DNA from: Mycolicibacterium goodii
Lineage (GTDB): Bacteria > Actinomycetota > Actinomycetes > Mycobacteriales > Mycobacteriaceae
Assembly (NCBI RefSeq): GCF_022370755.2
Contig: NZ_CP092364.2
Coordinates: 6,677,307 to 6,741,306, forward strand
Length of the DNA: 64,000 bases
Reading direction: 5' to 3'
Shown here: piece after piece, positions 29,767 through 63,412 of the stretch
Numbering within the stretch: the first letter of the stretch is position 1
Layout of the letters: the number at the start of each line of letters is the position of its first letter
Made by a program: the position numbers and the translations under genes
The notes under the pieces: model-generated
Database searches by the model: none
What the model was told of the DNA's origin: nothing
The model's input: the letters and a program-made list of their open reading frames with translations, nothing else

Positions 29767-30039
29767 ATGTACCAACGGCTTTCGGGCCTCGATAGTGAGA
29801 AGGTGTTTGCGGGGGTAGCTCGGAGCGGGGCCACGGGATCGCTGAGGACCGATCGTGGTGCAGGTCCGGCAATCGCGGTGCAGGCACCGGGAATGGCCCA
29901 CACCGATATCGATGCCATCGTCTTCGGATCGCCAAAGACCGCTCACCACAAAGAGATCTACCCATTCTCGTCACCGCGGCGAGTGCGGGGCCAGATCGCG
30001 GGAAGACCGTTAGCTGTTCCTGCCGAAGGGAGCCGGTGA
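29767..30039 (+). CDS. Uncertain small ORF before the GlmS-like gene
   Basis: This 90-codon frame fills the gap between the regulator and the GlmS-like gene, and its stop overlaps the next start as TGATG. No Shine-Dalgarno is visible and the sequence (MYQRLSGLDSEKVFAGVARS...) has no recognisable family. The overlap favours it; everything else is neutral. If it is not coding, this 307-bp gap holds nothing else I can identify. Confidence 0.3.
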   Translation: MYQRLSGLDSEKVFAGVARSGATGSLRTDRGAGPAIAVQAPGMAHTDIDAIVFGSPKTAHHKEIYPFSSPRRVRGQIAGRPLAVPAEGSR

Positions 30040-31826
30040 TGTGCGGAATTATCGCCTGCCATACCGATCGGCCGGCTGCGGAGTATCTGCGAGTGGGATT
30101 GCGCAGACTCGAGTACCGCGGATACGACTCGGTGGGGGTGGCGCTCAGAACCGTCAGCGGCGATATCGCCCGACTGAGAACCACCGGGCGTATCGGTGCG
30201 CTGGAAAGCCTGTTGGACGAGTGGTCGGGACCGCAGCTCGATGGTGTCGGCATCGGGCACACGCGGTGGGCGACCCATGGTGCAGTGACCGAGCGCAATG
30301 CGCATCCCCACGTCGACTGCACCGGGCAAATCAGTCTGGTGCACAACGGGATCATCGAGAACGCCGCGGGGCTCCGGGTGGCACTGGCGGGCAGTGGCCA
30401 CACGTTCGCCACGACGGTGGACAGCGAGGTGCTGTGCCACTTGATCGAAGACGAACTTCGTGACCGTGCCGATCTGGTCACTGCCGTACAGCGGGCGCTG
30501 TGCAAGGTGCAGGGATCATGGGCGATCGCCGTCCTGGATCGGTATTCCGGCCGGATCGTCGTCGCGGCCGACGGTTCGCCGCTACTGGTCGCCCACACCG
30601 AACACGGTGACTTCGCGGCCAGTGACATCGCCGCGATCGCCGACTGGGCCGACGAGTTCCGTGTTCTGGAAAGCGGTGACGTGGTCGAGCTGTCCGACGA
30701 TGGCCGATGGACCCGCTCGGGCGTCATTGCTTCACCGCCGGCCGCAACGCGCTGCACGCTCAGGGGCGCCGACGTGGAGCTCAACGGCTACACCGACTAC
30801 ATGGCGAAGGAGATCGACGAACAGCCAGAGGCGGTCACTCGGGTTCTCGATCACCTGGGAGACCGGATCGCCACCGGTGCGCTCTGGCGCGAGTTCGGCC
30901 TTCCCCCCTTCGAACGTCTGCGGGTGATCGGTTGCGGCACATCGCTGAACGCCGGGAGTGTGATCGGCAACCTGGCGCGTGAGCTCGGTGCGATACCGGT
31001 GATCACCACCGTGGCAAGCGAGGCAGCGGCAGAGGTGCCGGAGTCCGCACAGATCTGCATTGCGATCAGCCAGTCCGGAGAGACCGCGGACGTGCTGCGT
31101 GCCGTGGAGTCGCCTGCGGTGGGGGCGTCACCCCTGGTGGCGCTCACCAACAGTTCGCATTCCACCTTGGCGCGGTTGGCCGATGCTGTCGTCGGATGCT
31201 CGGCCGGCCCCGAGATCGGTGTCGCGGCCACGAAAACCTTCACCTGTCAGATAGTCACCGGAACCGCGCTCATGATCTCCGCGCTCGTCGCGACGAGGCG
31301 GATCTCCACGGTGTGCGCCGGCCGACTCGTGGACGGCCTCTTGCGGGTACCTGACGAACTCGTCGCCGCAACGTCGATCGCGAAGCGGGTGCTGCCGCAG
31401 ATCGTCGATGAGTTGGTGGACTCCACCGGCTTCATCTTCATCGCACGGGGGTCGGGTCTTCCGTATGCCGCCGAGGGGGCGCTGAAACTCAAAGAGCTCA
31501 CCTATCGGTGGGCAGAGCATCATCCGGCGGGAGAACTCAAGCACGGCCCGCTGGCACTGGTCGGCCAGGACACGCCTGTCGTGGTGATCGACAACGGGGA
31601 CCAGAAGCTGGGCTGCAATGTTGCCGAGGTCCGCGCACGTGGTGGTCGGGTCATCTCGATCGGGCCGGCCGGTAGCAGCATCCCGGTGGTCGGGCTCAAC
31701 CGCGCCCCGTGGGGGCCACTTCAGGCGACCGTGCCCTTGCAAATCCTCGCGCGCACCCTGGCGCTGGCCCTCGGGCACGACGTCGACAAGCCGCGCAACC
31801 TGGCCAAGTCGGTGACGGTGGAGTGA
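30039..31826 (+). CDS. Glutamine-fructose-6-phosphate aminotransferase paralogue (GlmS-like)
   Basis: This 595-residue protein begins MCGIIAC, giving the N-terminal nucleophile Cys of class II glutamine amidotransferases. It has RLEYRGYDSVGV, HTRWATHG, and two SIS isomerase domains (GCGTSLNAGSVI; ARGSGLPYAAEGALKLKE), with KEIDEQPEA before the first and the family C terminus DKPRNLAKSVTVE. GlmS makes glucosamine-6-phosphate from fructose-6-P and glutamine. The ATG at 30039 is required to expose the Cys; a GTG one codon upstream is excluded. An AAGGGAG ribosome site precedes it. As mycobacteria have a housekeeping glmS elsewhere, this copy probably supplies amino sugar to the polysaccharide. 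Confidence 0.92.
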   Translation: MCGIIACHTDRPAAEYLRVGLRRLEYRGYDSVGVALRTVSGDIARLRTTGRIGALESLLDEWSGPQLDGVGIGHTRWATHGAVTERNAHPHVDCTGQISLVHNGIIENAAGLRVALAGSGHTFATTVDSEVLCHLIEDELRDRADLVTAVQRALCKVQGSWAIAVLDRYSGRIVVAADGSPLLVAHTEHGDFAASDIAAIADWADEFRVLESGDVVELSDDGRWTRSGVIASPPAATRCTLRGADVELNGYTDYMAKEIDEQPEAVTRVLDHLGDRIATGALWREFGLPPFERLRVIGCGTSLNAGSVIGNLARELGAIPVITTVASEAAAEVPESAQICIAISQSGETADVLRAVESPAVGASPLVALTNSSHSTLARLADAVVGCSAGPEIGVAATKTFTCQIVTGTALMISALVATRRISTVCAGRLVDGLLRVPDELVAATSIAKRVLPQIVDELVDSTGFIFIARGSGLPYAAEGALKLKELTYRWAEHHPAGELKHGPLALVGQDTPVVVIDNGDQKLGCNVAEVRARGGRVISIGPAGSSIPVVGLNRAPWGPLQATVPLQILARTLALALGHDVDKPRNLAKSVTVE

Positions 31827-31862
31827 CGTGATGCAGATGAACGCTCAGAAAGTCGGAATGCG

Positions 31863-32819
31863 ATGAGGTTCTTGGTAACCGGCGCTGCCGGCTTCATCGG
31901 GTCCAACCTCGTCGACCGTCTGCTGGCCGACGGCCATCAGGTGATCGGTGTCGACAACTTCTTCACCGGCGATCCGTCCAATCTCGAATCGGCGATGGAA
32001 CGCGGAAGCTCGATCGGTCGTGGATTCACCATGGTGAGGGCTGACATCCAAGCTCCCGAACTGACCGACATCGTCGCGGGCGCGTGTCCTCATGTGGTCT
32101 TCCATCTGGCGGCACGGCTCGAGCATGATGCCGCGCACCCGGATCCGCTCGTCGACGCCCGCACCAACGTGCTCGGCACCATCAACCTCCTGGAGGCGTG
32201 CAGGGTGGTCGGCGTGCGAAGGATCGTCTACGCCACGTCCGAGAATTCCGCATACGGGGTGGAGCCGCTGTCGTCCCATGCGGCAGCGAAACTCTCGGCC
32301 GAGCTGTACCTGCGGGCGTATGCCGAGATGTACGGTCTGGCACCGATCTGTCTTGCGCTGTCCAACGTCTACGGGCCGCGTCAGCGCCCCCACGGTGTCG
32401 CGGCACTCATCACGGTCCTTGCCAGCGCCATGGTTACGGGCCGGCCGTACGTCGTGAACCGGGACCATGCCGACGCACACGACTTTGTGTATGTCGGCGA
32501 CGTCGTCGACGCGTTCGTGCGAGCTGCGCATGCACCACTCGGGACGGTCGGAACCTTCGACATCAGCGGGACCCACGTCACGGCCACCGACATCCACCAC
32601 GCGATTGCCGCGGTGCTCGACGAAGCAGCACCGTCAGATGCCATCGGGGAGGGGAGCAGGGAATTGATCGAAAACGTTGTTTGCACCGACACGGAAGACG
32701 AACTCGGGTGGAAACCCGCCGTGAGCCTTATGCATGGCATTCGGCAGACCGTCGAATGGCTGTGTCAGACACTCGAACCTAATTGTTTGCCAGCGGACTT
32801 CGTTGCAGAAGGTGCATGA
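31863..32819 (+). CDS. NAD-dependent epimerase/dehydratase lacking the catalytic tyrosine
   Basis: This 318-residue extended SDR has the NAD site VTGAAGFIGSNLVDRLLADG, D31 for NAD, HLAAR, and SNVYGPRQRP. Relatives include UDP-glucose/UDP-GlcNAc 4-epimerases and UDP-glucuronate decarboxylase. Where these have YxxxK, this protein reads SSHAAAK, with His139 in place of Tyr and Lys143 kept. The preceding loop is also shortened (SENSAYGVEPLSS). Activity may be altered or lost. It lies 36 nt after the GlmS-like gene and overlaps the initiating transferase by ATGA. Confidence 0.87.
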   Translation: MRFLVTGAAGFIGSNLVDRLLADGHQVIGVDNFFTGDPSNLESAMERGSSIGRGFTMVRADIQAPELTDIVAGACPHVVFHLAARLEHDAAHPDPLVDARTNVLGTINLLEACRVVGVRRIVYATSENSAYGVEPLSSHAAAKLSAELYLRAYAEMYGLAPICLALSNVYGPRQRPHGVAALITVLASAMVTGRPYVVNRDHADAHDFVYVGDVVDAFVRAAHAPLGTVGTFDISGTHVTATDIHHAIAAVLDEAAPSDAIGEGSRELIENVVCTDTEDELGWKPAVSLMHGIRQTVEWLCQTLEPNCLPADFVAEGA

Positions 32820-34372
32820 TGACCGCTCAGATCTCGAACTTCGACAATCAGTTCGGCACCCGTCCGTCGGTGGACTTACCGAGGGTCGACTCGTTCGTGG
32901 CGGGAACGAACATCTCGATCAAGTTGCCGCCGAGCAGTGTTTTCCAGCGGTCGAACTGGCAGAAGAGGTACTCCGCCTATCTGCTGATGACCGATACCGT
33001 GGTGATCGCACTTTCGGTGGGTTTTGCCCAACTCGTCCGGTTCGGCCCGACGCTGCACCCGTGGGGATATCCGAAGTTCTACGTGCCTGCCTTCTCGATA
33101 CTGTTCGCGATCGCCTGGCTGCTGGCCCTGTCGGCACTGCGTACTCGCTCGCCACGTATCACCGCGGCATGTGTCGACGAATATCGCCGTGTCGCGGCCG
33201 CATCGTTCTGGACGTTCGGGGCGATCGCCATGGTGTCACTGCTACTGAAGCTGGACATCGCGCGTGGCTACCTCGCGGTGGCTCTTCCGGTGGGCACGCT
33301 CGGTCTGCTGCTCGGCCGCCGCTTCTGGCACCGACACGTCGCCCGTGAACGTGTCGCGGGCCGGTATCGAACGGCGGTTCTGGCGTTCGGCGAAATCGAC
33401 GCGGTCACCGAACTCGCCGGTGAACTGTCCCGAAATCCCGCGGACGGGTATCACGTTGTGGGTGTCGGTATTCCGCGATATGGCCGACCACGAGGCGAGT
33501 TCGTGACGGTGAACGGACACCGGATACCGATAATCGGCGGCGAAGCCGAGATGCTTGATGCGGTCCACACCTGCGGCGCCGACACCGTCGCGATCGCCGG
33601 CACCGAAGCCTTCGGCGTCCGCGGAATTCGAAGACTACTGTGGCAATTGGAGCCTCTCGGGGTGGACCTGGTGGTGTCGACGGGCGCCATGGATGTGGCG
33701 CTCTCGCGCATGGTTATGCAGCCCATAGCGGGAATTCCGCTGCTGCACATCGAGAAGCCGCTATACCGGAATGCCAAGCGATTCCAGAAGTATCTGTTCG
33801 ACATGAGCTTTGCGCTCGCCGTGCTCATCGTGACTTCGCCACTTCTACTAATGACGGCCATGGCGATCAAGGTGACCAGCAGAGGGCCGGTGTTCTACTC
33901 GGCGGAACGGATCGGTGTCGACGGCAAGCTGTTCTCGATGCTGAAGTTCCGCACGATGGTTCAGAACGCGGATCAGCTGCTCGACGACCTGAAGGAACTG
34001 AACGAGTCCGACGGTCTACTGTTCAAGATTCACGATGATCCGCGTGTGACAAGGGTCGGTCGGATCCTGAGGCGCCTGAGCATCGATGAGCTTCCACAGT
34101 TCATCAACGTGCTCCGAGGTGAGATGAGCGTCGTCGGACCCCGTCCACCGTTGCGGCGCGAGGTCGAGGAGTACGACTGCGAGATCCTACGCAGGCTGCT
34201 CGTGAAACCGGGAGTGACCGGCCTGTGGCAGGTGAGCGGTCGGTCGGACCTGTCGTGGGATCAGGCGGTTCGGCTCGATCTGTCCTATGTCGACAACTGG
34301 TCCATGATCGGTGACATCTTGATCGTGGCAAAGACATTCGGCGCGGTTCTGCGCAAAGACGGCGCGTACTGA
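32816..34372 (+). CDS. Polyprenyl-phosphate sugar-1-phosphate transferase (WbaP/CpsE type)
   Basis: This ~518-residue membrane protein has about four N-terminal helices (residues 50-190), a Rossmann-like middle domain (GGEAEMLDAVHTCGADTVAIAG), a fifth helix (FDMSFALAVLIVTSPLLLM) and a C-terminal bacterial sugar transferase domain (MLKFRTMVQNAD, LRRLSIDELPQFINVLRGEM, VGPRPPLRREVE, KPGVTGLWQVSGRS). Such enzymes start repeat-unit assembly by moving a sugar-1-phosphate onto decaprenyl/undecaprenyl phosphate. The start ATG overlaps the epimerase stop; the second ATG at 32819 is equally possible. Confidence 0.95.
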   Translation: MMTAQISNFDNQFGTRPSVDLPRVDSFVAGTNISIKLPPSSVFQRSNWQKRYSAYLLMTDTVVIALSVGFAQLVRFGPTLHPWGYPKFYVPAFSILFAIAWLLALSALRTRSPRITAACVDEYRRVAAASFWTFGAIAMVSLLLKLDIARGYLAVALPVGTLGLLLGRRFWHRHVARERVAGRYRTAVLAFGEIDAVTELAGELSRNPADGYHVVGVGIPRYGRPRGEFVTVNGHRIPIIGGEAEMLDAVHTCGADTVAIAGTEAFGVRGIRRLLWQLEPLGVDLVVSTGAMDVALSRMVMQPIAGIPLLHIEKPLYRNAKRFQKYLFDMSFALAVLIVTSPLLLMTAMAIKVTSRGPVFYSAERIGVDGKLFSMLKFRTMVQNADQLLDDLKELNESDGLLFKIHDDPRVTRVGRILRRLSIDELPQFINVLRGEMSVVGPRPPLRREVEEYDCEILRRLLVKPGVTGLWQVSGRSDLSWDQAVRLDLSYVDNWSMIGDILIVAKTFGAVLRKDGAY

Positions 34373-34381: not shown

Positions 34382-35260
34382 ATGCGTGGGATCATCTTGG
34401 CAGCCGGACTCGGCTCGCGCCTGTACCCGATCACCATCGGAGTCAGCAAGCAATTGCTGCCCGTCTACGACAAGCCGATGGTGTATTACCCGTTGTCGAC
34501 GTTGATACTCGCAGGCATCCGTGACGTCCTGGTGATCACCGCCCCCGTGGATGCACGCGCCTTCAGCGCGTTGCTCGGTGACGGCTCGCAGTTCGGGATG
34601 AACATCGAGTACGCCGTTCAGCCGAAGCCAGAGGGAATCGCCCAGGCCTTCGACATCGGTCGCAGCTTCATCGGTTCGGACCGTGTTGCTCTGGCCCTCG
34701 GCGACAACATCTTCCATGGTCCCAAGCTGGGTGCCAGCCTGAGCAGGTTCGGCGCCATCGACGGCGCGGGGATTTTCGCCTACCGTGTCGCCGACCCGAC
34801 CGCCTACGGTGTGGTCGAGTTCGACGACCAATGTCGCGCGGTGTCCCTCGAGGAGAAGCCGAAGGTACCGCGATCCGAGTACGCCGTTCCAGGTCTGTAC
34901 TTCTACGACAACGACGTGATCGAGATCGCCGCCGGCCTGAAGCCATCGGATCGCGGCGAACTCGAGATCACCGATGTCAACGGCGCATATCTCGACCAGG
35001 GCCGGTTGTCGGTCGAGGAGCTTCCGCGCGGCACGGCGTGGTTGGACACGGGGACGTTCGACTCGCTACTGGACGCAGGCAGTTACGTCCGCACGATCGA
35101 GCAACGGCAAGGTCTGAAGGTCGGAGTGCCGGAGGAAGCTGCGTGGCGCCGCGGGCTCATCGACGACGACACGCTGCGTGAGCGCGGTGAACTTCTCTAC
35201 AAGTCCGGATACGGGAACTACCTGCTGCGTCTGCTGGACGGTTGGGGGGCACCGGCATGA
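34382..35260 (+). CDS. rmlA: Glucose-1-phosphate thymidylyltransferase
   Basis: This 292-residue nucleotidyltransferase has [50 protein letters not shown] and [20 protein letters not shown], the set diagnostic of RmlA. It makes dTDP-glucose from glucose-1-P. It starts 9 nt after the transferase stop and overlaps ugd by ATGA. It is presumably a second copy dedicated to this cluster, because mycobacteria need housekeeping RmlA for the cell-wall linker. RmlB and RmlD are not in the window. Confidence 0.95.
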
Positions 35261-36618
35261 GGATGGTGGTGTTGGGCACCGGATATCTCGGAGCCACCCA
35301 TGCGGCGTGCATGGCCGAGCTGGGTCATGAAGTCCTCGGGGTGGATATCGATCCGGCCAAGCTCGCGAAACTGGAAGCGGGTGAGGTGCCGTTCTTCGAA
35401 CCCGGGCTCTCCGAGGTGCTCAGAAGACACACCACCAGCGGGCGTCTGCGCTTCTCGCCCTCGTACGACGAAGCGGTCGCCTTCGCCGATGTCTTCTTCG
35501 TCGCCGTTGCGACGCCGCAGAAGAAGGGCGATTACGGCGCCGATCTCAGCTTCGTCGATGCCGTGATCGCCAGCCTGGCACCGCTGTTGGACAAGCCCGC
35601 GGTGATCATCGGGAAGTCGACGGTCCCCGTGGGGACCGCCGCGAGGCTTGCTTCCCGGGTGCGGGCTCTTGCACCGGCACGTGAGGCCGTCGAACTGGCG
35701 TGGAACCCCGAGTTCCTGCGGGAAGGCTTCGCAGTTCAAGGGACACTGCACCCCGACCGTCTCGTTCTCGGTATCGAGCGGCCCGGTGCGGGTCGCGCCG
35801 AGGGGGTGGTGCATGAGATCTACGCCGAGTTGATCGCCGACGGCGTTCCGTTCATCGTGACCGATCTCGCCACCGCCGAGCTGGTGAAGGTATCGGCGAA
35901 TGCGTTTCTCGCAACCAAGATCTCGTTCATCAATGCCATAGCCGAGGTTTGCGAGGCGGTGGACGCAGACGTCACCGTCCTCGCCGATGCGATCGGTTAC
36001 GACGGGCGGATCGGGCGGCGGTTCCTCAACGCGGGCATAGGCTTCGGTGGAGGTTGTCTGCCGAAGGACATCCGGGCATTCATGGCCAGGGCAGGTGAAC
36101 TGGGCGCCAACCAGGCACTGACGTTCCTGCGTGAAGTCGACAGCATCAACATGCGGCGCAGGACGCGGGTGGTCGAGATCGCCCGGGAGACCTGCGGGGG
36201 GAGCTTCATCGGCGCCCGGGTTGCCGTCCTCGGCGCGGCATTCAAACCGGATTCCGACGATGTGCGGGACTCACCGGCGCTGAACGTCGCAGGCCAGATC
36301 CAGCTGCAGGGGGCGTGTGTGAACGTGTTCGACCCCCAGGCGATGGACAACTCGCGCGCATTGTTCCCGACGTTGAACTACGCGACTTCTGCTTTCGAGG
36401 CCTGCGAAGGCGCCGACGTGGTTCTGGTTCTGACCGAATGGGCAGAGTTCCGTGCGATCGATCCTGCCGCGCTGAGAACGACGGTCAGATCTGCCGTGGT
36501 GATCGACGGGCGCAACTGCCTGGACGCCAAAGCGTGGCAGGCGGCCGGTTGGCACTACCGGGCCCTGGGCAGGCCCGCGTTGCCGCGCGAGTTGAGTGCA
36601 TCGGTGAATGCGCAATGA
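35257..36618 (+). CDS. ugd: UDP-glucose 6-dehydrogenase
   Basis: This 453-residue enzyme has the N-terminal NAD fold ([20 protein letters not shown]), [33 protein letters not shown], the central [20 protein letters not shown], the catalytic cysteine loop [16 protein letters not shown], and a C-terminal domain with [17 protein letters not shown]. It oxidises UDP-glucose to UDP-glucuronic acid. The presence of this gene and of a PssD/PssE-type transferase next to it suggests that glucuronic acid is part of the repeat unit. Confidence 0.95.
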
Positions 36619-37604
36619 CGAACGCCGCGCGGTACGTAGTCGCCCCGGAGTGCGACCCGGTACCTGGATGCCATTTGTTGGCTGCCTCGACCGGGGGGCA
36701 TTTGGCCCAACTCGTGAAGTGGTCGGGGGTGATCGGTTCTGATCCCGACTCTCTGTGGGTGACGTTCAAGTCGCCTCAGAGCGATTCGCTACTGCAACGC
36801 CGTCGGGTGATGTACGTCCCGTATGTCGCGCCACGCGATATCCGTGGAGCCGTCGATGCGCTGAGGCGCATGATGCGGGAGATCCACTGGAAAGAAGAGG
36901 ATTTCACGGCAGCGGTGACGACAGGCGCGGCAGTCGGTCTGGCGGCGCTCGTCGCTGCGCGGTCCCATCACATACCGTCCTATTACTTCGAGAGCGTGTC
37001 TCGTGTGGACGGGCCATCGCTCACCGGCAAGCTGGCCAGCCTCCACCCGGGTGTCCGTACCAGCTGTCAGTATCAGCAGTGGGCGGGCCGCCGCTGGAGG
37101 TATCGAGGGTCTCTTTTCGACAGCTACACAACGTGTCCCAAACCGCAGGTCGACAATCCGAGCCTGTTCGTCACTCTTGGCACGATCTATCCCTACCGGT
37201 TCGACGCGCTTGTCGACGCGGTTCTCCGGACCGGCCTTGCCGATGGCCGCACCGTGTGGCAACTCGGCAGCACGGCGCGCGAGGGACTGCCAGGAAGGGC
37301 AATGTCGCAAATGGGTGCCGCCGAGTTCGAAGACTGCGCGCGCACCGCCGGTGTCGTCATCACTCACGCCGGCGTCGGGACGATAATGCACCTGCTCGAG
37401 ATGGGGATCTATCCCGTGGTGGTTCCGCGCCGCGCGAAGCGGCACGAGCACATCGACGATCACCAGGTACAGATCTCGTCACTGCTGAAGAGCCGGGAGA
37501 TCTCGGTCGTGGCCGAAGCCGATGAGCTGAACCGCAGCACGATCGTCGCGGCCTCCACGACATCGGTGCGTAGCGGGCCCGGGCTCGCGGTCGAAAGAGC
37601 CTGA
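36615..37604 (+). CDS. Fused Alg14/Alg13-type (PssD-PssE) glycosyltransferase
   Basis: This 329-residue protein combines two halves usually separate. The N-terminal half (~1-165, LLAASTGGHLAQLVKW, AVTTGAAVGLAALVAARS, YYFESVSRVD) resembles Alg14/PssD/EpsE. The C-terminal half (~185-325, LFVTLGTIYPYRFDALVDAV, VVITHAGVGTIMHLLEMGIY, RRAKRHEHIDDHQVQISSLL) resembles the GT28 C-domain of Alg13/PssE. In rhizobia PssD-PssE transfers glucuronic acid to the lipid-linked glucose. The ATG overlaps the ugd stop (ATGA), which supports UDP-GlcA as the donor by inference. Confidence 0.9.
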   Translation: MTNAARYVVAPECDPVPGCHLLAASTGGHLAQLVKWSGVIGSDPDSLWVTFKSPQSDSLLQRRRVMYVPYVAPRDIRGAVDALRRMMREIHWKEEDFTAAVTTGAAVGLAALVAARSHHIPSYYFESVSRVDGPSLTGKLASLHPGVRTSCQYQQWAGRRWRYRGSLFDSYTTCPKPQVDNPSLFVTLGTIYPYRFDALVDAVLRTGLADGRTVWQLGSTAREGLPGRAMSQMGAAEFEDCARTAGVVITHAGVGTIMHLLEMGIYPVVVPRRAKRHEHIDDHQVQISSLLKSREISVVAEADELNRSTIVAASTTSVRSGPGLAVERA

Positions 37605-37633
37605 ACGTGTCCACGCAGAAGAACGGAGATCTC

Positions 37634-38890: not shown

Positions 38891-39687
38891 AAGTCGTTCT
38901 GTTCTGCGGCGGATACGGTATGCGCATGCGCAACGGTCCGGGTGACGCCGTACCGAAGCCGATGCAGATGGTCGGTCCGCGGCCGCTCATCTGGCACGTC
39001 ATGCGTTACTACGCGCACTTCGGCCACAAAGAGTTCATCCTGTGCCTCGGTTACGGCGCGGACCACATCAAGAACTACTTCCTGACGTACCAGGAGGCCG
39101 CCTCGAACGATTTCGTGATGAGCGGTGGCCAGGTCCAGTTGATGCACTCCGATATCAGCGACTGGACGATCTCCTTCGTCGACACCGGACTCGAATCGCC
39201 GATCGGAGAGCGTCTGCGCAGGGTTCGTGATTATCTCGGCGGCGACGAGTACTTTTTGGCGAACTACGCCGACGTGCTGACCGACGCACCGTTGGACCAC
39301 ATGATCGACGAGTTCCATCGGTCCGGTGCGGTCGCCTCGATGATGGTGGTGCCGCCTCAATCGTCATTCCACTGCGTCGAGGTGTCAGAGGCCGGCGAGG
39401 TCAAGGAGATCATTGCGGTCTCCGAGTTGACCATCTGGGAAAACGGTGGCTTCTTCGTTCTCTCCCAGGACATCTTCGATCTGCTCCCGCCGGGCGGTGA
39501 CCTCGTGGCGGATGTGTGCGGCACGCTGGCGGGGCAGGGAAAGCTGTTCGGATACCGGTACCAGGGGTTCTGGAAGCCCGCCGACACGTTCAAGGAACGG
39601 GCCGAACTCGAGGCCAGATACCACGACGGTGACCGCCCATGGATGTTGTGGGAGAAGTCGGCCCGCGCGGTGCGCGAGGCCTCATGA
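38887..39687 (+). CDS. rfbF: Glucose-1-phosphate cytidylyltransferase
   Basis: This 266-residue nucleotidyltransferase has VVLFCGGYGMRMRNG, PKPMQMVGPRPLIWHVMRYY, ILCLGYGADHIKNYF and FWKPADTFKERAELE, as in RfbF/DdhA, which makes CDP-glucose. A typical CDP-glucose 4,6-dehydratase (GHTGFKG motif) is not in the window; the SDR at 40382 may take that or a later step. Overlaps (ATGA) at both ends tie it to the C-methyltransferase and the PIG-L protein. Confidence 0.93.
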   Translation: MKVVLFCGGYGMRMRNGPGDAVPKPMQMVGPRPLIWHVMRYYAHFGHKEFILCLGYGADHIKNYFLTYQEAASNDFVMSGGQVQLMHSDISDWTISFVDTGLESPIGERLRRVRDYLGGDEYFLANYADVLTDAPLDHMIDEFHRSGAVASMMVVPPQSSFHCVEVSEAGEVKEIIAVSELTIWENGGFFVLSQDIFDLLPPGGDLVADVCGTLAGQGKLFGYRYQGFWKPADTFKERAELEARYHDGDRPWMLWEKSARAVREAS

Positions 39688-40352: not shown

Positions 40353-40381
40353 CGAACGACAAAGTAAGGGAGGAACAGGGG

Positions 40382-41948: not shown

Positions 41949-41962
41949 ATGGAGATGGTGTC

Positions 41963-48315: not shown

Positions 48316-48429
48316 CCGCGCTGTTCCCGGCACCCCGTCATCGTCCCGCCGCACCTCATGCCGGTGGTGCCCAGATCTGCCGGTGGAGGCATCCGGAAAA
48401 TCAACGGGCGCTGTGGTTACGGAGCTGTG

Positions 48430-56133: not shown

Positions 56134-56360
56134 TGGAAGCCGCAGGTGACAAGCGTGCGTTCGGCTGATCGGCTGCGACGTCGCGCCACCGCTGTGTGCG
56201 ACGGCACGCCTGGTCTGGAACCAGAATCGTTCTCTAGTCAAGCAAAGCCTTTGGAGTTTGCCACAGGGGGCATAAGATCTGCCAAGGTGGTGGTGGGCGC
56301 GCGAGAGTTCGATGGTCGCGCGTGTGTCGAGGGAGGGCGACGTGGGGGAATGGCGAGCCC

Positions 56361-58487
56361 GTGGTTAGCGTGTTGACAGAGCCCAGTGGGCTTGTGAATC
56401 CCGTTGCGGTGAGCCGAATCTCCGGACCTCCCCGGCGCGGGGCCGTGATAGTTCCCGCGTACAACGAAGCCGCGGTGATCGAACGGACGCTGGCTCCACT
56501 GAGTCAGGCGGCGACCGAGGGATTCATCGAACTGATCGTGGTTTGCAACGGCTGCACCGACGACACCGCGTCCTTGGCGCGACGTATCCCGGGGGTCCAG
56601 GTAGTGGAACTGGCGCAGGGGTCCAAGCCTGCTGCGCTCAATGCCGGAGACGCCGCGGCCACCCTCTGGCCCCGGCTGTATCTGGATGCGGACATCCAGA
56701 TCTCGCCTGATGCGGTCCTGGCAGTTCTCGACCGGCTCGCGCGCGGCGATGTGTTGGCCGCGCGCCCCGACTGCAGGTACGACACCGACGGAGCCAGCGG
56801 GGTGGTCCGCAGCTACTACCGGACACGCCAGCGACTTCCGCAGCACAAACTCGCGATGTGGGGTGCCGGGGCCTACGGCCTCACCGCGACCGGGCATGAG
56901 CGGTTCGGTGCCTTTCCGATGGTGACCGGCGATGATTTCTTCATCGACAACCAATTTGAGGCCCACGAGAAGGTCGTGGTGCAAACCGAACCCTCGGTCG
57001 TGAAAACGCCTGTCGATGCCAAGAGCCTGTTGGCGATCCTGCGACGGAGTTACCGAGGCAAGGTCGAATTGTCGTCTGCCGACCGACTCCGATTACCCGA
57101 GCGGGTACGACGAATGGGTGCGCACACGGCAGTCGCCGTCGTACGGGCAGTTGACGGACCACGATCTGCTGTTGATGCGGGCGTGTACCTGGGCATGGCG
57201 CTGGCCAAACGGTTGTCCGTGGGAACGTCACAGACATGGGCGAGAGACGAGAGCAGTCGAGCGCTCAACCGGGGAGGTGGAGACAGTCGACCTCGTGGCT
57301 CCACTCACAGCGTCGAGATCCTGTGCGCAGTGGACGATCTCGACCGTGTCCGCGACGAATGGGACGGCTTCGTCGAACGTTCTGGCAGTGACATCTACTT
57401 CACGGTGGATTGGTTACAAGCGTGGTGGGCACACTACGGCGGGCAACGTGAGTTCTTCGGCCTGCTCATCAGAGAGCACGGGAAGTTGGTCGGTGTCCTG
57501 CCCTTGTGTGTCCATCGGATCTGGGCGGGACCGGTCCCGGTGCGGTTGGCGCGGTTCGTCGGAGCCGACTCCACCCTGCCGGTCTTCACGCCCGCGATCG
57601 CCGACGGCCATGAACAGACCGTGGTGCGTGCCGCTCTCGAAATGGTCTTCGACGAGGCCGGCTGCGACGCCTTGAGCCTGTCCCCGCTGTCGGGTCGGTC
57701 ACCCGTGGCAGCGGCCGTCGAGCGGGCAGTGGATGAAGCCGCCTCGCTCAGAATATTGCGTGCGGACACCCATGGACCCCACGCGGTGTTCGCACTTCCG
57801 GGAACCTTCGACGAGTACCTCCTCGATCTCAGCAGTGCACAACGCAAAGCTCACAGGCGCAACCTGCGGAAGCTGAACAATCGGTACGACCTCTCGTTCC
57901 GAACGATCAGTGGTGACGAGGCGATCGGCTACTTCGACGGTTTCGTCGACTTGCACACGTCGTACTGGCGCCGGCGGGGCAAGCTCGGGCATTTCGGGGA
58001 CTGGCCGCGCAGTGCCGAATTCAATCGCGAACTCATCTCGCGCATGGCGCCGAGCGGACGAGCACGGTTCTATGAAATCGCCGGAGACGGTCGGGTGCTG
58101 GCCATCGAGTACGGATTCGTTCTCGGCGATCGGTGCTACTCGCGTTTGCCTGCACGAGTAGACGACCCGTCGCTGGAAACGCTGGGCTTGGGCCGGGTGA
58201 GCGTCGCGGAGAAGTTCCGGGCCCTGATCGGAAGCGGGATCAGAGAGGTCGAGAGCGGTCCCGGCCACTACGACCACAAGGTACTTCTGGGGGCCGAGGA
58301 GTATCCGCTACGCCGCCTGGTGGTGAGCCGGCGCTGCGGACTTCCGCGTTGGCGCGGTGAGTTTCTGGTCCTCTGGGCCGACCTGCTGAACCTGGCCTAC
58401 TATCGCGTCTGGTTCCTCAAACTCCGCCGAAGGCTGCGGCTGCCGCCGCGACACCTGTGGCGCCCGTGGATACAGACCCGTGTGTAA
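56361..58487 (+). CDS. Fusion of family 2 glycosyltransferase and GNAT/BcsL-type acyltransferase
   Basis: This ~708-residue protein joins two enzymes. Residues ~25-290 are a GT2 domain (VIVPAYNEAAVIERTL, LIVVCNGCTDDTASLA, LYLDADIQISPDAVLAVL, MVTGDDFFIDNQF). After a linker, residues ~330-690 form a GNAT/CelD-type domain (SDIYFTVDWLQAWWAHYGG, LSSAQRKAHRRNLRKLNNRY, GDRCYSRLPA). The same acyltransferase type occurs alone at 60187. The start is uncertain: GTG 56361, GTG 56370 and GTG 56322 are all in frame; 56361 has GGGGGA 11 nt upstream. Sugar transfer followed by amine or hydroxyl acylation is inferred. Confidence 0.87.
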   Translation: MVSVLTEPSGLVNPVAVSRISGPPRRGAVIVPAYNEAAVIERTLAPLSQAATEGFIELIVVCNGCTDDTASLARRIPGVQVVELAQGSKPAALNAGDAAATLWPRLYLDADIQISPDAVLAVLDRLARGDVLAARPDCRYDTDGASGVVRSYYRTRQRLPQHKLAMWGAGAYGLTATGHERFGAFPMVTGDDFFIDNQFEAHEKVVVQTEPSVVKTPVDAKSLLAILRRSYRGKVELSSADRLRLPERVRRMGAHTAVAVVRAVDGPRSAVDAGVYLGMALAKRLSVGTSQTWARDESSRALNRGGGDSRPRGSTHSVEILCAVDDLDRVRDEWDGFVERSGSDIYFTVDWLQAWWAHYGGQREFFGLLIREHGKLVGVLPLCVHRIWAGPVPVRLARFVGADSTLPVFTPAIADGHEQTVVRAALEMVFDEAGCDALSLSPLSGRSPVAAAVERAVDEAASLRILRADTHGPHAVFALPGTFDEYLLDLSSAQRKAHRRNLRKLNNRYDLSFRTISGDEAIGYFDGFVDLHTSYWRRRGKLGHFGDWPRSAEFNRELISRMAPSGRARFYEIAGDGRVLAIEYGFVLGDRCYSRLPARVDDPSLETLGLGRVSVAEKFRALIGSGIREVESGPGHYDHKVLLGAEEYPLRRLVVSRRCGLPRWRGEFLVLWADLLNLAYYRVWFLKLRRRLRLPPRHLWRPWIQTRV

Positions 58488-58544: not shown

Positions 58545-59252
58545 GTGTTGTCGGTTCGGTCAACTCGCCCAGTAGGTGTCGAGCGCGCTTCCGTCTGTAA
58601 CCTCACAGTCCACGGAATCGGCATGGCCTCTCGTGAGTTGGATCCGGGGGAGGATCTGACCTGGGTCAGTGTCGCGCAGTTCGAGCTGGTCCTCGATGCG
58701 GTAGCGGGGCGATCAGACGTGCGCCTCACGTTCGACGACGGAAACGCATCGGATGTGGACATCGCGTTACCGCGGCTGATGGAGCGTGGCATCAAGGCGG
58801 AGTTCTTCTTGCTCGCAGGTGAATTGGGCAAGCAGGGACGTGTCGACCACACCGGGGTCGAGAAGCTCCTTGATGCAGGTATGGCGATCGGTTCGCACGG
58901 CTGGTCGCATCGCGATTGGCGGCGCATCGACGACGCGCAGGCTCTTGAGGAAGTCGAAGGCGCCCAACGTACGCTGAGCGCTCTCACCGGTGGTCCCGTG
59001 TCACGGGTCGCGATCCCGTTCGGTTCGTATGACCGCCACGTGCTGCGGCGGCTGCGGCGCGCCGGAGTGACGCGCGTATACACCAGTGACGGTGGGCGGG
59101 CCCGACCGGACGCCTGGTTACAGCCACGTACCAGTCTGCGTCATGACATTGACGAGGCCTGGATAGCACGTGTGCTCGATCAGAACACGCCGCTCGTTCG
59201 CGCAGCGCGTAACCGCGCCGCGCGGGCCGCGAAGCGCTGGAGGGGCCGATGA
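58545..59252 (+). CDS. Polysaccharide deacetylase (NodB family)
   Basis: This 235-residue protein has the NodB motifs RLTFDDGNASD, GSHGWSHRDWRR and RVAIPFGSYDRHVLRRLRRAG. It has no signal peptide, so it should act in the cytoplasm on a precursor or lipid-linked sugar. The GTG at 58545 is kept because the family N terminus (VCNLTVHGIG) lies after it; GGGGG is 3 nt upstream. The stop overlaps the next glycosyltransferase by ATGA. Confidence 0.9.
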   Translation: MLSVRSTRPVGVERASVCNLTVHGIGMASRELDPGEDLTWVSVAQFELVLDAVAGRSDVRLTFDDGNASDVDIALPRLMERGIKAEFFLLAGELGKQGRVDHTGVEKLLDAGMAIGSHGWSHRDWRRIDDAQALEEVEGAQRTLSALTGGPVSRVAIPFGSYDRHVLRRLRRAGVTRVYTSDGGRARPDAWLQPRTSLRHDIDEAWIARVLDQNTPLVRAARNRAARAAKRWRGR

Positions 59253-60190
59253 CGCGAGACGAAGATTTCACTCGTGCAACCGATGTGGCGCGTGTGGCGG
59301 TAGTGATCGTGACTTACAACAGCGCAGACGTCCTCGGCGACTGCCTGCGTGCGCTCGCCGATGAGGGCACGCCGTTGGCAGCCGTGGTCGTTGCAGACAA
59401 TGCCTCCCGGGATGAGACATGCGGGATCGCCGAGGATTTCGCCGATCTGGACGTCACGGTGATCCGAACCGGACGCAACGGCGGATACGCCGCCGGGGTG
59501 AACGCCGGCATCGCCGCGCTCGACCTGGCCTGTCTGGACGCAATACTCGTGCTCAACGCCGACTGTCGGGTCTCGCCGAACACGCTGCAGGTACTGGCTT
59601 GTGCGTTGCGCCGGCCCGGCCGCGGCATCGCCGTGCCGCGTTTGCTCTATCCCAACGGCACTCAGCAATACACCCTGCGCCGCAAACCGACCGTGGTCCG
59701 GGCGCTGGTCGAGGCCTTGGTGCCCGGAAGCTTGGCCGGTCGGATGGGGCCGCTGGGCGAACGAGTAACCGATCCCCGCGCTTACGAGCAAGCAGGCGTC
59801 ACCGCGTGGGCCACCGGCGCGGCGATGATGCTCTCGGTACCGACGTTGCTCGATGTGGGCTTGTGGGACGAGTCGTTCCTGATGTACAGCGAGGAGACCG
59901 AATACTGTTTGCGCGCAGCGGACAAGGGTTGGTGCACCTGGTACGAGCCCGCCGCGGTGTTCGAGCACGTCGGCGGTGACTCCGAGACCAAGCCGATGTT
60001 CGCCTCGATGCTGACAGTCAACAAGGTGGAGCTGTTCCGGCGGCGGCACAACCGCCTGCATGGTGCGGCCTATCTCGCGGCAGTGGCGGTGGGGCAGGGT
60101 CTGCGTGCGGTGGCCGGCCGACCCACGTCGCGTGCGTCGATCGCGGCTCTGTTCCAGCCTTCTCGCCGGTTGCAGGAGTTACCCACGTGA
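59249..60190 (+). CDS. Family 2 glycosyltransferase (rhamnosyltransferase-like)
   Basis: This 313-residue GT2 enzyme has VAVVIVTYNSADVLGDCLRAL, VVADNASRDET, GRNGGYAAGVNAGI, ILVLNADCRVSPNTL, GAAMMLSVPTLLDVGLWDESFLMYSEETEYCLRA. It resembles WbbL/RfbF-type rhamnosyltransferases. The ATG overlaps the deacetylase stop; its own stop overlaps the next gene's GTG. The donor may be dTDP-rhamnose or another deoxy sugar. Confidence 0.92.
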   Translation: MTRDEDFTRATDVARVAVVIVTYNSADVLGDCLRALADEGTPLAAVVVADNASRDETCGIAEDFADLDVTVIRTGRNGGYAAGVNAGIAALDLACLDAILVLNADCRVSPNTLQVLACALRRPGRGIAVPRLLYPNGTQQYTLRRKPTVVRALVEALVPGSLAGRMGPLGERVTDPRAYEQAGVTAWATGAAMMLSVPTLLDVGLWDESFLMYSEETEYCLRAADKGWCTWYEPAAVFEHVGGDSETKPMFASMLTVNKVELFRRRHNRLHGAAYLAAVAVGQGLRAVAGRPTSRASIAALFQPSRRLQELPT

Positions 60191-61290
60191 CCGCTACTTC
60201 CGATCTCACCAGCTCCCGCCTTGTGGGCTTCGATGCGCTGGGCAACGAGGAAATCGAAGCGTGGCATGCGTTGCGGGCAAGCAATCCGGCGCTGGACAGC
60301 CCCTATTTCCACCCAGGATTCGCGGCGGCTGTACATGCCACCGGACGGCACGTGTCGGTGGTTGTGGTGCGGAACAGCTCCGGTGCGGTGTCCGCACTGC
60401 TCCCGGGACACCGCGAGGGTGCCGTATTGCAACCCGTGAGCTGGCCTGGCGCAGACTTCCAGGGACCACTCTTCAGGCCGGCCGAGGCGCCGTCTGCGTC
60501 CGAGTTCCTGGTGGATGGCCTTCGGGTCCTCATGTTCGATCATCTGATTTCGCAAGGGCCCGATTTCGACCCGTGGATCGTGTCGAGTCAGCCATCACCC
60601 TGGATGGACGTCACGGGCGGGTTGGACGGCTACCTCGGCCGAGCGTCGCGCAGCGGCCGGGACAAGATGAAGGAGGCCCGGCGCTGCCTGGCGAAAGCCG
60701 AACGGTCCCATGGGCCGGTCCGTTTCGCCGTCGATGTTGTCGACGACGATGCGCTCGCGCGCTTGATCGAGTTGAAGCGCGCCCAGTACGCCGCCACGGG
60801 CAGCCGCGACTTCTTCGCGAAGCCGGGCCACATCGAGTTGATGCACCGTCTGCTGCATACTCGTGAGCCCGGGTTCGGAGGTGTACTTTCCACGGTTCGT
60901 GTCGGGGATCGATTGGTCGCGGCTCATTTCGGAATCCGCTCCGATCATGTCCTGCACTGGTGGTTCCCGGTCTACGATCCGGTGTTCTCCCAACTGTCGC
61001 CAGGCTGGATCCTGTTGCGTGAGGTGATCTCTGCCGCACCAGGATCAGGCATTCTCCGTTTGGACCTCGGCCGAGGCGATGACGACTACAAACGACGGGC
61101 GAAGACCGGCGAAACGGTCGTGAGCCAAGCCTTCATCAGCAACAGTGCCACTCGACGGGTGTTGCGCGGCGGACGTGACGCGGTGATGAACGCGGTGAAG
61201 AACTCACCTCTCGCTCCCAGGCTGCGACAGGGAGTTCGCTACCTCCGCGGTGTCAGGTCATCTGGCCGACAGATGCCGTCGCGGAGCTAG
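60187..61290 (+). CDS. GNAT/CelD (BcsL)-type acyltransferase
   Basis: This 367-residue protein has the two-lobed CelD-like layout: SPYFHPGFAAAVHATGRHVS, ASRSGRDKMKEARRCLAKAER, and the second lobe DRLVAAHFGIRSDHVLHWWFPVYDPVFSQLSPGWILLREVI. FemAB- and CelD-like enzymes transfer acyl or aminoacyl groups. It parallels the C-terminal half of the fusion at 56361, so two acylations may occur. The GTG overlaps the GT2 stop. The last 33 nt overlap the 3' end of the convergent Wzy-like gene. Confidence 0.88.
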   Translation: MTATSDLTSSRLVGFDALGNEEIEAWHALRASNPALDSPYFHPGFAAAVHATGRHVSVVVVRNSSGAVSALLPGHREGAVLQPVSWPGADFQGPLFRPAEAPSASEFLVDGLRVLMFDHLISQGPDFDPWIVSSQPSPWMDVTGGLDGYLGRASRSGRDKMKEARRCLAKAERSHGPVRFAVDVVDDDALARLIELKRAQYAATGSRDFFAKPGHIELMHRLLHTREPGFGGVLSTVRVGDRLVAAHFGIRSDHVLHWWFPVYDPVFSQLSPGWILLREVISAAPGSGILRLDLGRGDDDYKRRAKTGETVVSQAFISNSATRRVLRGGRDAVMNAVKNSPLAPRLRQGVRYLRGVRSSGRQMPSRS

Positions 61291-62670
61291 GCGCCCGGCA
61301 TACCTGCCCCTGGTGCGATCGGGCTCAGGAGATTCGACGGTGTACCCGGACCACAGCAGGCCAAAGGTGATGAAGAACAGGAAGGTTGCCTGCTGGAAAC
61401 CGAACAGGTCGAATGTGAAGCTCGAGACGAGCACCGCGACGATGATCGCTCCGAGTACATACGCCTGATACCGTTCACGGGAATTCGAGGCGCAGCGCAG
61501 TGCGGCAGCGATGCCGAAAACACCTCCGCCCGCGAGCACAATCATCGCGGTGACTCCGACAAGGCCACCTTGCACGACCGCCTGAAGCCACTCGTTGTCC
61601 AGCAGCCCGTAGACCTCCGGCGGTGATGCACCGAGCCCCAGACCGAACGCCGGACGAGCGCGAAAGGTCTCGGATACCGTGGCATAGTCGGCAGTCCTGC
61701 CGAGGACGCTCGGATCCTTCTCCGACGTGACGATGGTCTCCCACAGTGCCCTGGTGATGTTCGGGAACGCAGTCATGTACCCGCCGACAGCGAGGATTCC
61801 GACAACTAGGCCGACTGCGATCTGACGGACCGTATGGCCGAACATCAGGATCAGAAGGGCCGCGCCCAGGGCGATCACACCTGTCCTCGACACTCCGGTC
61901 GGCACAGTCACGATGGCCAGACCACACACCGCGGCGGACAGTATGCGGCGATTGCGTGTGTTGGCGAAGCGAGCGAAATAGAGAGCCAGGGGAAGCGCCG
62001 ACGCGGTCAGGATGGAGTACTCGATCGCGTGTTCGGAGGTCCCCAGAGCACGTTCGACACCCGCACGCTCAACCAGCGACAGAGTATCGGTGCTGACAAC
62101 AAATCCCGGTGGTTGGAACAGGAACCGCAAGTCGACAGACACGGCGCTTTGAAGAAGACCTACGACGCAACCGAAAGCCATCCCGCACAAAAGACATCCG
62201 AGGACGAAATCACGCTGCCGGGGCGTCCGTACGCGCGTCACCACGTAGAGGCCCAATCCGACATTCGCGGTGAGCGCGATCAGGCTGCGGGTCATGCTTG
62301 CATCGGTGGCGGCAGATGCCGGCGAGGGGTCGAAGTCGAGTAGTGCGACCCCGTACGTCGTGAGCCAGAGGAAGAAGTAGAGCACGAGGATCAACACGCC
62401 GGGCTGTATTCGGCGGGCCTTCTCGGTCCGGCGGACCATCAGGAAGCCGAGCACGATCAAACCGAAGAACACCACCGCGATCATGCGTGCCGGCGAGCCG
62501 TTGCTCTTCAACGGCCCCGGAAACAGTACATAGCTCGGCAGGATCATCATCACGATGCAGAGGATCCCGAGCAACCACGGCCGGCGTTCTTCTGTCTCGG
62601 CAGGTGCGCTTGCCAGGAAATCAGTCGGAACGGATCGTGCCGACCTCGTGGTCCTCACTGGCGCTGCCAT
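61258..62670 (-). CDS. O-antigen polymerase/ligase-like membrane protein (Wzy candidate)
   Basis: This ~470-residue protein has about 11-12 hydrophobic helices and a long extracytoplasmic loop. It has VPTGVSRTGVIALGAALLIL, GRTADYATVSETFRARPAFGLGLGASPPEV, LDNEWLQAVVQGGLVGVTAM, patterns of the Wzy_C/O-antigen ligase superfamily. It would polymerise the repeat units outside the membrane. ATG 62670 lies 1 nt after the Wzz-like stop, so the two are co-transcribed. A longer frame to 62805 overlaps the wzz-like gene and was rejected. Confidence 0.9.
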   Translation of the reverse strand: MAAPVRTTRSARSVPTDFLASAPAETEERRPWLLGILCIVMMILPSYVLFPGPLKSNGSPARMIAVVFFGLIVLGFLMVRRTEKARRIQPGVLILVLYFFLWLTTYGVALLDFDPSPASAATDASMTRSLIALTANVGLGLYVVTRVRTPRQRDFVLGCLLCGMAFGCVVGLLQSAVSVDLRFLFQPPGFVVSTDTLSLVERAGVERALGTSEHAIEYSILTASALPLALYFARFANTRNRRILSAAVCGLAIVTVPTGVSRTGVIALGAALLILMFGHTVRQIAVGLVVGILAVGGYMTAFPNITRALWETIVTSEKDPSVLGRTADYATVSETFRARPAFGLGLGASPPEVYGLLDNEWLQAVVQGGLVGVTAMIVLAGGGVFGIAAALRCASNSRERYQAYVLGAIIVAVLVSSFTFDLFGFQQATFLFFITFGLLWSGYTVESPEPDRTRGRYAGRLAPRRHLSAR

Positions 62671-62671
62671 G

Positions 62672-63412
62672 TCAGGGCTGATTGACTTCTGAGCTTCTGA
62701 CCGGCTGTCCATTGGTCGATGCGGCTTCGGAAGTGTGGTCCTCCCTGACCATTCCGGCCACGGGGGAGCGTCTGCGTCGTCGACCGATCCGAACGAGCAG
62801 CACATCCAAAAGCACCGTCACCACAACCGATATACCGATGCCGGCAACGAAGATCGCGATCGTCGATCGGGTTCGGGCGGGCATCCCGGCGGCTGGGGCG
62901 CTCGGGGGTGACACGACAAACGGTCGGACCATCTGTGCTTCGGGTACCTGAGCCTGCTGCTGCAGGTTTCGCAGTGTTTCCTCCGCCTGCGCGGTGACCA
63001 GTTGCATGGTGATGGCCACAGCCTGCTCGTCGGCGTTCGTGGCTTCGATCATCACCAGTGGTAACTGCTGCATGTTCGCGGGGCTGGGGAACATCCTGGC
63101 GTCGTAGTCGGGGATGCCGCCCGAGGCGACGACCTTGTCGATCACCGCCGGCTCCTTGAGCCCCAGAGCTGTCATATTGGCGATCAGCGATGCGCCACCG
63201 ACGTCGAGAAGTCCGTTGCGTGGTATCGAAACACCTTGTGGCGCATTGTCGATACGCGTGCTCGGGGCCGCGATTCCTATGACAGCGTTCGAATAATAGA
63301 CCGGCTGAACCGAGTTGTATGTCGAGTAGCTGAACCAGGTCACGATCGCCAACAGCGGAACGAAGACATACCAGCGGCGAACGCATGACCGCACGACATC
63401 GAACAGGTCCAC
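62672..63412 (-). CDS. Wzz-like chain-length/export protein without kinase domain
   Basis: This 246-residue protein has a transmembrane helix near each end (WYVFVPLLAIVTWFSY at ~15-30, STIAIFVAGIGISVVVTVLLDVLLV at ~185-210). Between them is an extracytoplasmic domain with GIAAPSTRIDN, LDVGGASLIANMTALGL and a helical QAEETLRNLQQQAQVPEAQ before PFVVSPPSAP. This is the Wzz/YveK arrangement controlling chain length. No tyrosine-kinase domain or Tyr-rich tail is present. GTG 63412 has AGGGA upstream. It leads the minus-strand wzz-wzy pair. Confidence 0.87.
   Translation of the reverse strand: MDLFDVVRSCVRRWYVFVPLLAIVTWFSYSTYNSVQPVYYSNAVIGIAAPSTRIDNAPQGVSIPRNGLLDVGGASLIANMTALGLKEPAVIDKVVASGGIPDYDARMFPSPANMQQLPLVMIEATNADEQAVAITMQLVTAQAEETLRNLQQQAQVPEAQMVRPFVVSPPSAPAAGMPARTRSTIAIFVAGIGISVVVTVLLDVLLVRIGRRRRRSPVAGMVREDHTSEAASTNGQPVRSSEVNQP

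Follow-up and report, generated by a model that had tools for sequence, protein, structure and literature searches.

A predicted Wzx/Wzy-type surface-polysaccharide locus among the cholesterol-catabolism genes of Mycolicibacterium goodii

Overview

The terminal 64 kb of a single 6,741,306-base contig of Mycolicibacterium goodii (NZ_CP092364.2, bases 6677307-6741306; this whole stretch is called the window below) and the start of the same contig together carry what is probably, judging from gene content and comparison between genomes, a Wzx/Wzy-dependent surface-polysaccharide locus in which, as in a capsule (K) locus, the ends are conserved and the centre can be exchanged. The locus spans about 51 kb, from a gene for a LuxR-type regulator at 28814 to the end of the window and then for about 16 kb from the contig start (coordinates in this contig-start region are prefixed L030, and L030 1-16191 holds the remainder of the locus). 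It is placed in a cholesterol-catabolism region, between genes that, going by the gene order of M. tuberculosis, we presume to be ltp2 and hsd4B. Its inventory comprises one initiating polyprenyl-phosphate hexose-1-phosphate transferase (PGT), seven glycosyltransferases, two flippase-like, two polymerase/ligase-like and three Wzz-like proteins, and precursor and decorating enzymes.

A sequence-only reading of the window had proposed a complete Wzx/Wzy-type exopolysaccharide cluster at 30039-63412. The gene set is of this type, with component families scoring above curated cut-offs, and each component named there (initiating transferase, flippase, Wzy-like and Wzz-like proteins, glycosyltransferases and precursor genes) was found, by domain matches or, for the Wzz-like protein, by position and relatives. 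The word "complete" did not hold for that interval, as the cluster starts earlier (28814), runs past the window end and has a second Wzx/Wzy set outside the window.

The contig end and start are crossed by ugd2, a UDP-glucose/GDP-mannose dehydrogenase gene on the + strand, which starts at 63996 (63996..64000) and whose reading frame resumes at base 2 of the contig start (L030:2-1315). The order wzz1-ugd2-epiC recurs, with the same neighbours of ugd2, in two relatives referred to as G199 (inferred M. diernhoferi) and G344 (inferred M. goodii), so the two contig ends are considered adjacent. A 21-base stretch stands in direct tandem at 63959-64000, at the exact contig end and at the ugd2 start, and is possibly an untrimmed circularisation overlap.

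Assembly machinery

The PGT gene (32783..34372, + strand, likely ATG at 32816) scores 222.5 bits against PF02397 (cut-off 27) and 422.3 against TIGR03025 (cut-off 295.55). Residues 320-529 of its product align with solved WbaP structures at E 3.5e-57, and the SxDELPQ stretch is retained. When named species genomes were scanned for the PGT by itself, 26 loci were returned (Cyanobacteria, Clostridia, Acidobacteria and others), none of them mycobacterial; the scan is uninformative on mycobacteria, as records close to the source genome may be excluded there.

Both flippase-like proteins belong, by their domain matches, to families above cut-off. Wzx1, a MOP flippase in the exchangeable centre (48358..49962, +), matches PF13440 at 218.7 bits (cut-off 23) as well as PF01943 and has 12 transmembrane-like segments; Wzx2 matches PF01943 at 38.7 (cut-off 28.2) and has 11. 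Wzy1, a polymerase or ligase of the Wzy/WaaL superfamily (61258..62670, -, open reading frame (ORF) to 62805), matches PF04932 at 45.2 bits (cut-off 31.7), and the best fold match of its model (pLDDT 81.8) is WaaL 7tpg (Foldseek E 1.7e-7, TM score 0.50/0.56, 17% identity). Wzy2 has no Pfam match of its own, PF04932 being found in some close homologues, and a homologue named from M. smegmatis MKD8 is 85% identical across 94% of the query. The Wzz-like protein of the window, Wzz1 (62672..63412, -), reaches 12.4 bits against PF02706 (cut-off 25.5) and is assigned as a co-polymerase because of its position and of relatives at 51-76% near wzy1 in nine other genomes. The two Wzz-like proteins beyond the window score 33.0 (L030:3170-3820, above 25.5) and 18.2 bits (below it).

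Relatives in other mycobacteria

The closest named homologues of the locus proteins are from Mycolicibacterium (diernhoferi, goodii, agri, frederiksbergense, smegmatis and others), with Rhodococcus more distant. A search for the gene set in other mycobacteria, which the sequence-only reading had suggested, turned up related loci, with near-identical content in G199 and a replaced centre in G344. In G199, 39 of the 40 compared cluster genes are matched in the same order and between the same flanks (epiA is unmatched), at 75-80% DNA identity across most of the block. G344 matches 34 of 40 at E<=1e-20; both ends are kept and the centre is replaced, flippase included. The genes without a match there at this threshold are wzx1, gmc1, sdr, pda, femL and mt3, and a looser cut-off yields a 24% match to wzx1. 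At the DNA level the ends are 81-91% identical to G344, and coverage drops to 15% between 48 and 50 kb and to 0% in the 50-52 and 58-60 kb stretches.

Across the genus, wzx1 is found in 2 of 198 genomes at E<=1e-30 (its own and one 27% match), and wzy1 in 12 of 396 at E<=1e-60, its own included. The neighbourhood of wzy1 was examined in 10 of the 11 other genomes (all but G302). It contains wzy2 in nine of them (not in G323, where 20 kb were examined) and wzx2 in eight (not in G323; the 11 kb contig of G041 ends first), and a second MOP-flippase match to wzx1 in six, at 84% in G199 and 24-27% in G344, G280 (inferred M. frederiksbergense), G335, G304 and G285. The hsd4B gene lies near the wzy1 block in six (G199, G344, G335, G304, G395 and G255) and outside the stretches examined in the other four. 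Since related loci occupy this chromosomal position in other mycobacteria as well, the locus is not unique to the source strain.

The two sets of machinery can also be found apart. G165 has relatives of PGT, wcaI, gt4, wzz, wzy2, gt2b and wzx2 with no separate wzx1 or wzy1 match, which would be one complete system on the strength of similarity to locus proteins and of membrane pattern. G170 combines a PGT and the C-methyl/CDP cassette, 72-83% identical, with a Wzx (PF13440) and a PF04932 protein of its own, and shows no wzx2/wzy2 match. Because wzx1/wzy1 and wzx2/wzy2 are separable in this way, a union is likely, and the M. goodii locus looks like two systems joined, each carried singly in other species.

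At the same site, where Wzx and Wzy are expected, G118 (L062 8142-11111, +) and G137 (L065 2192-5068, -) encode a 960-990 aa protein with 21-23 transmembrane-like segments, about 12 plus 9-11. Its membrane pattern and setting invite the guess of a natural flippase-polymerase fusion; Pfam, a PDB search with the N-terminal half of the G118 protein and profile comparison gave no support for it.

The chromosomal site

Among the 198 genus genomes (own included), 183 have relatives of ltp2 and 182 of hsd4B. The gap between the two was surveyed among the matches listed, 150 per marker, which gave 120 genomes with both genes, on the same contig in 112 and on different contigs in 8. The two genes are convergent in all 111 genomes checked by script, and likewise in the source genome by its coordinates. 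The gap is at most 5.5 kb in 79 of 112 genomes, 5.5-10 kb in one and more than 10 kb in 32, where it measures 10-57 kb. In mycobacteria the ltp2-hsd4B interval is either short or filled by a large island of variable content.

A PF02397 transferase lies inside 15 of the 32 gaps above 10 kb. In G169 one lies next to ltp2 where the contig ends, which brings the count to 16 of the 33 genomes searched. The other 17 of the 32 have none, and two of these 17 were examined for content. The gap of G056 contains genes resembling those for Wzz, GlmS and LuxR, and G132 has a 29 kb insertion (L099-L100) with transposase-like and catabolic ORFs, by eye, and no matches to the polysaccharide genes of the window. 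As the G132 insertion looks unrelated to polysaccharides, the site also serves as a general spot for insertions. Large gaps there are not all polysaccharide loci, going by the content of G132 and by the 17 of 33 genomes without a PF02397 transferase.

Coding status, composition and selection

The locus ORFs listed have no internal stops and a coding-like codon-position G+C, which together with the domain matches identifies them as real coding genes, far beyond chance. Third-position G+C is about 0.70-0.81 in the cluster genes listed (four centre genes stand outside this listing, one of them at 0.78) and, among five listed flank genes, 0.85-0.91 in four and 0.76 in the fifth (27485). Binned along the window, overall G+C is 0.66-0.69 from 1 to 28 kb and 0.60-0.66 from 28 to 64 kb. 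These lower values fit exchanged DNA.

The ratio of nonsynonymous to synonymous divergence (dN/dS) was compared for 40 cluster genes, with ugd2 and the DUF218 gene outside the 40. It is 0.04-0.28 in all 39 genes matched in G199 and 0.05-0.26 in 33 of the 34 matched in G344, the remaining one being gt2 (39% identical and probably non-orthologous) at 0.53. Such low ratios against both relatives indicate that the locus genes are under purifying selection. Synonymous divergence (dS) from G344 is 0.35 for hsd4B and 0.31 for kstD, 0.29-0.96 for the outer cluster genes except AT3 (1.20), and 0.89-1.57 for the centre (gtX, orf630, wcaI, gt2gnat, gt2, wzy1 and wzz1). The higher centre dS fits exchange, values near 1 being close to saturation.

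Proposed pathway and alternative explanations

From the genes present we infer each enzymatic step, the sugar composition and the product, a capsule or exopolysaccharide. The PGT would load a hexose-1-phosphate onto decaprenyl phosphate; the C50 decaprenyl phosphate is given as the mycobacterial carrier in PMC12826051. A PssDE-like enzyme would then add glucuronic acid supplied by Ugd. This glucose-glucuronic acid start is suggested by initiation of the WbaP/WcaJ type and a subsequent PssDE/WelK-like enzyme, which scores below the cut-offs of its models. Further transferases would add amino and C-methylated deoxy sugars from glmS2 and the CDP-sugar cassettes, the flippase or flippases would turn the lipid-linked repeat over, and the Wzy-type enzyme or enzymes would polymerise it with the Wzz-like co-polymerases. 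Acetyl-, acyl- and deacetylase-type enzymes may decorate the polymer.

Several observations weigh against assigning the locus to Wzx/Wzy polymer synthesis. PF04932 includes both ligases and polymerases, and with the WaaL-like fold it fits either activity of Wzy1 alike. The Wzz1 of the window falls below its Pfam cut-off, and the G165 relatives of wzx2 (46% identical) and wzy2 (38%) have no Pfam match. No outer-membrane exporter was found among the scanned locus ORFs, and a genome-wide search was not made. On paper the CDP-sugar route has a gap, since of 8 genome matches to CDP-glucose 4,6-dehydratase none is above the model's cut-off. The five G199 matches sdr, wzz3, wzz2, wzx2 (one each) and ampAT (two) contain six in-frame stops, which could sit at match ends or be real breaks. 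At the site itself, the large gaps without a PF02397 transferase and the insertion of G132 count on the same side.

The ambiguity of Wzy1 gives rise to an alternative that we regard as unlikely, namely a protein- or lipid-linked glycan in which Wzy1 is a ligase of the WaaL/PglL type and the second Wzy/Wzx serves the same or another glycoconjugate. The Pfam name of PF04932, "O-antigen ligase", the fold match to WaaL and a match of Wzy1 to TIGR03097, "putative O-glycosylation ligase" (47.7 bits, below the cut-off of 188.1), speak for it. Three Wzz-like co-polymerases, one above cut-off, point instead to control of polymer chain length, PF04932 covers polymerases too, and no exosortase was found among the scanned ORFs. 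An island that is inactive or in decay, sitting at an insertion hot spot, would account for the G+C below that of the left flank, for the patchy distribution with a gap of just 0-5.5 kb in other species, and for the in-frame stops in the five G199 matches; the open ORFs with their coding-like codon pattern, purifying selection and the gene order kept against G199 and G344 make it very improbable. The least probable of the alternatives is a lipooligosaccharide or glycopeptidolipid locus, that is, a mycobacterial glycolipid of an already known kind. Branched and C-methylated sugars do occur in mycobacterial lipooligosaccharides, and an AMP-ligase/carrier/acyltransferase protein is encoded at L030:13405-16191. 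Such loci are defined by polyketide synthase and acyltransferase genes for the lipid part, however, and no polyketide synthase (ketosynthase) or PapA-type acyltransferase domain was found among the scanned ORFs; nor are WbaP-type PGT, Wzy and Wzz known to belong to the described routes to these glycolipids.

An extension of the polysaccharide-locus interpretation, which we offer tentatively and hold to be doubtful, is that ltp2-hsd4B is a general serotype (K-like) locus of environmental mycobacteria, at which flippases, transferases and sugar cassettes would be swapped between species. In the source strain, two complete systems sharing one PGT would then make two different surface polymers, with wzx2/wzy2 conserved and the wzx1 centre variable.

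Gene content and flanks

The left part of the locus opens with the LuxR-type response-regulator-like gene (28814..29731, +, PF00196 62.7 bits), relatives of which lie on the ltp2 side in G118, G137, G165, G177, G191, G196, G108, G056, G199 and G344. Next come a paralogue of GlmS-like glucosamine-6-phosphate synthase (30036..31826, +, TIGR01135 533.6 vs 418 bits), in which a start at ATG 30039 makes Cys residue two, and the NDP-sugar epimerase/dehydratase epiA (31863..32819, +, PF01370 152 bits). Downstream of the PGT gene lie an RmlA-like nucleotidyltransferase (34382..35260, +, PF00483 218.5 bits), a UDP-glucose dehydrogenase family gene for UDP-GlcA supply (35242..36618, +, TIGR03026 421.8 vs 189.8 bits) and a glucuronosyltransferase of the fused PssD-PssE type, GT28-like and with an estimated start (36615..37604, +, PF04101; NF046028 WelK 108.6, cut-off 400).

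The sugar cassette (37607-43039) consists of C-methyltransferase 1 (37607..38890, +, PF08484 and PF08421), a glucose-1-phosphate cytidylyltransferase-like gene (RfbF; 38887..39687, +, start estimated, TIGR02623 179.3, below the cut-off of 300), a PIG-L family deacetylase (39639..40352, +, PF02585 40.9 vs 28.2), the NAD-dependent epimerase/reductase epiB (40379..41410, +, start estimated, PF01370 142 bits), an RmlC-like 3,5-epimerase (41394..41948, -, PF00908 184.5 vs 27) and C-methyltransferase 2 (41963..43039, +, PF08484 93.4 bits). All or part of this cassette is also found in G006, G045, G116, G108, G170 and G395. The source genome has a second polysaccharide locus at about 4842000-4882000, with its own PGT (50-52% identical to that of the first) and most of the CDP-sugar/C-methyl cassette at 60-72% identity, with no rmlC match. 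A shorter PGT copy there matches in several pieces and is apparently broken.

Beyond the cassette follow a protein with a duplicated domain, as judged by eye (43550..44542, +, no Pfam match above cut-off; 73% in G199, 75% in G344), a methyltransferase-like protein by eye (44594..45256, -, without Pfam match; 83% in G199) and a class III aminotransferase (45392..46771, -, PF00202 121 vs 30.5 bits). The central part contains a glycosyltransferase (47116..48315, +, PF13524 42.5 vs 25), wzx1, a GMC oxidoreductase (50328..51998, +, PF05199 and PF00732) and a short-chain dehydrogenase (51988..52815, +, PF00106 153 bits). The lipoprotein-like secreted protein at 52849..54492 (-, 547 aa form) represents an unnamed phylum-crossing family, with 1108 homologues out of 7994 scored candidates and a model pLDDT of 84.7; it had no match in Pfam or in the PDB sequence search. 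It is followed by a WcaI-like GT4 glycosyltransferase (54847..56133, +, PF13579 77.3; NF007640 234 vs cut-off 276), a GT2 glycosyltransferase fused to a GNAT/FemAB-like domain (56322..58487, +, PF00535 58.4, PF13480 84.1), a polysaccharide deacetylase (58545..59252, +, PF01522 80 bits), a GT2 glycosyltransferase (59249..60190, +, PF00535 81.4 bits) and a GNAT/FemAB-like acetyltransferase (60187..61290, +, PF13480 134.6 bits). Five glycosyltransferases therefore lie inside the window (36615, 47116, 54847, 56322 and 59249) and two beyond it.

On the contig start, ugd2 is followed by an epimerase, two Wzz-like proteins, two SGNH hydrolases, a GT4, a hexapeptide transferase, Wzy2, a GT2 and Wzx2, and these by a DUF218-like gene (21.9 bits, cut-off 27.6), a second GMC oxidoreductase and the AMP-ligase/carrier/acyltransferase gene. 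This last is one ORF of 928 aa (L030:13405-16191, +) with AMP-ligase, carrier and membrane acyltransferase domains, ending against hsd4B; its product possibly activates an acyl group and transfers it to the glycan.

The left flank holds cholesterol side-chain genes (CoA-transferase, enoyl-CoA hydratase, thiolases, P450, acyl-CoA dehydrogenases and a ChsH2-like gene), including the ltp2-like thiolase (24962..26266, +, PF22691 110.5 bits), which lies outside the locus. Between it and the locus are two conserved proteins, PPE/ESX-like by eye and without Pfam match (26342-27445 and 27485-28288, +), relatives of which adjoin ltp2 in G118, G191, G108, G177, G199 and G344. At the right end, on the opposite strand, stand the 286-aa gene presumed to be hsd4B and an FAD-binding kstD-like gene that we likewise take to be kstD; an FAA-hydrolase gene is also on the right flank. 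For M. smegmatis, a published table (PMC4881515) includes MSMEG_5953-5966, which by number fall between MSMEG_5941 (KstD) and MSMEG_5990, among gene clusters induced on cholesterol compared with androstenedione; these genes might correspond to the present locus.

Relation to known systems and significance

A fixed site, conserved ends and a variable centre are the pattern of K loci, and the M. goodii locus shares it, the replaced centre being that of one relative, G344. Shared as well are a WbaP/WcaJ-type PGT, a MOP flippase, a PF04932 protein, Wzz-like proteins and precursor genes. What differs is the mycobacterial host, the ltp2-hsd4B site, and the presence of two Wzx, two Wzy and three Wzz-like proteins with a single PF02397 transferase. 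The enzyme set is also similar to that of XrtA/PEP-CTERM-associated exopolysaccharide clusters, for which the models are all below cut-off in the locus (TIGR03013 182.5 vs 393.35, TIGR03097 47.7 vs 188.1 and TIGR03006 21.1 vs 276.2); exosortase, which belongs to such clusters, is the enzyme noted above as having no match among the scanned ORFs.

Within the phylum, PMC13390465 describes Wzx/Wzy-type clusters of Actinoplanes missouriensis, imp and wps-1/2/3, studied by deletion. Like the M. goodii locus, they bring Wzx, Wzy, Wzz and glycosyltransferases together in one actinobacterial cluster, and wps-3 also shares a deacetylase and an aminotransferase with it (PMC13390465). The wps clusters differ in organism, in having 10-11 genes with one Wzx and one Wzy each and in their developmental role, the likeness being drawn by description (PMC13390465). 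Given these clusters, the Wzx/Wzy kind is already known in the phylum, and what is new here is the mycobacterial host, the site and the doubled, exchangeable machinery.

For mycobacteria, no description of a Wzx/Wzy polysaccharide was found in the open-access literature, among the matches listed (subscription papers were mostly outside the scope). To our knowledge, no mycobacterial surface glycan described so far is the product of a Wzx/Wzy route. The proposal in the sequence-only reading of "a distinct polysaccharide" agrees with this in its novelty and goes too far in its singular, as the anatomy fits one or two polymers.

That reshuffled related blocks share one chromosomal spot in other mycobacteria suggests a capsule-like coat with a make-up that varies between species. 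If our proposal is true, a capsule-like polymer joins the mycobacterial envelope and surface variation between species gains a genetic basis, both of which become testable in a fast-growing laboratory species. Should the ltp2-hsd4B interval also prove to be a general serotype locus, its place among cholesterol genes would tie coat production to growth on sterols. The locus could bear on phage receptors, clumping, biofilm and the passage of a large hydrophilic polymer across the mycolate layer.

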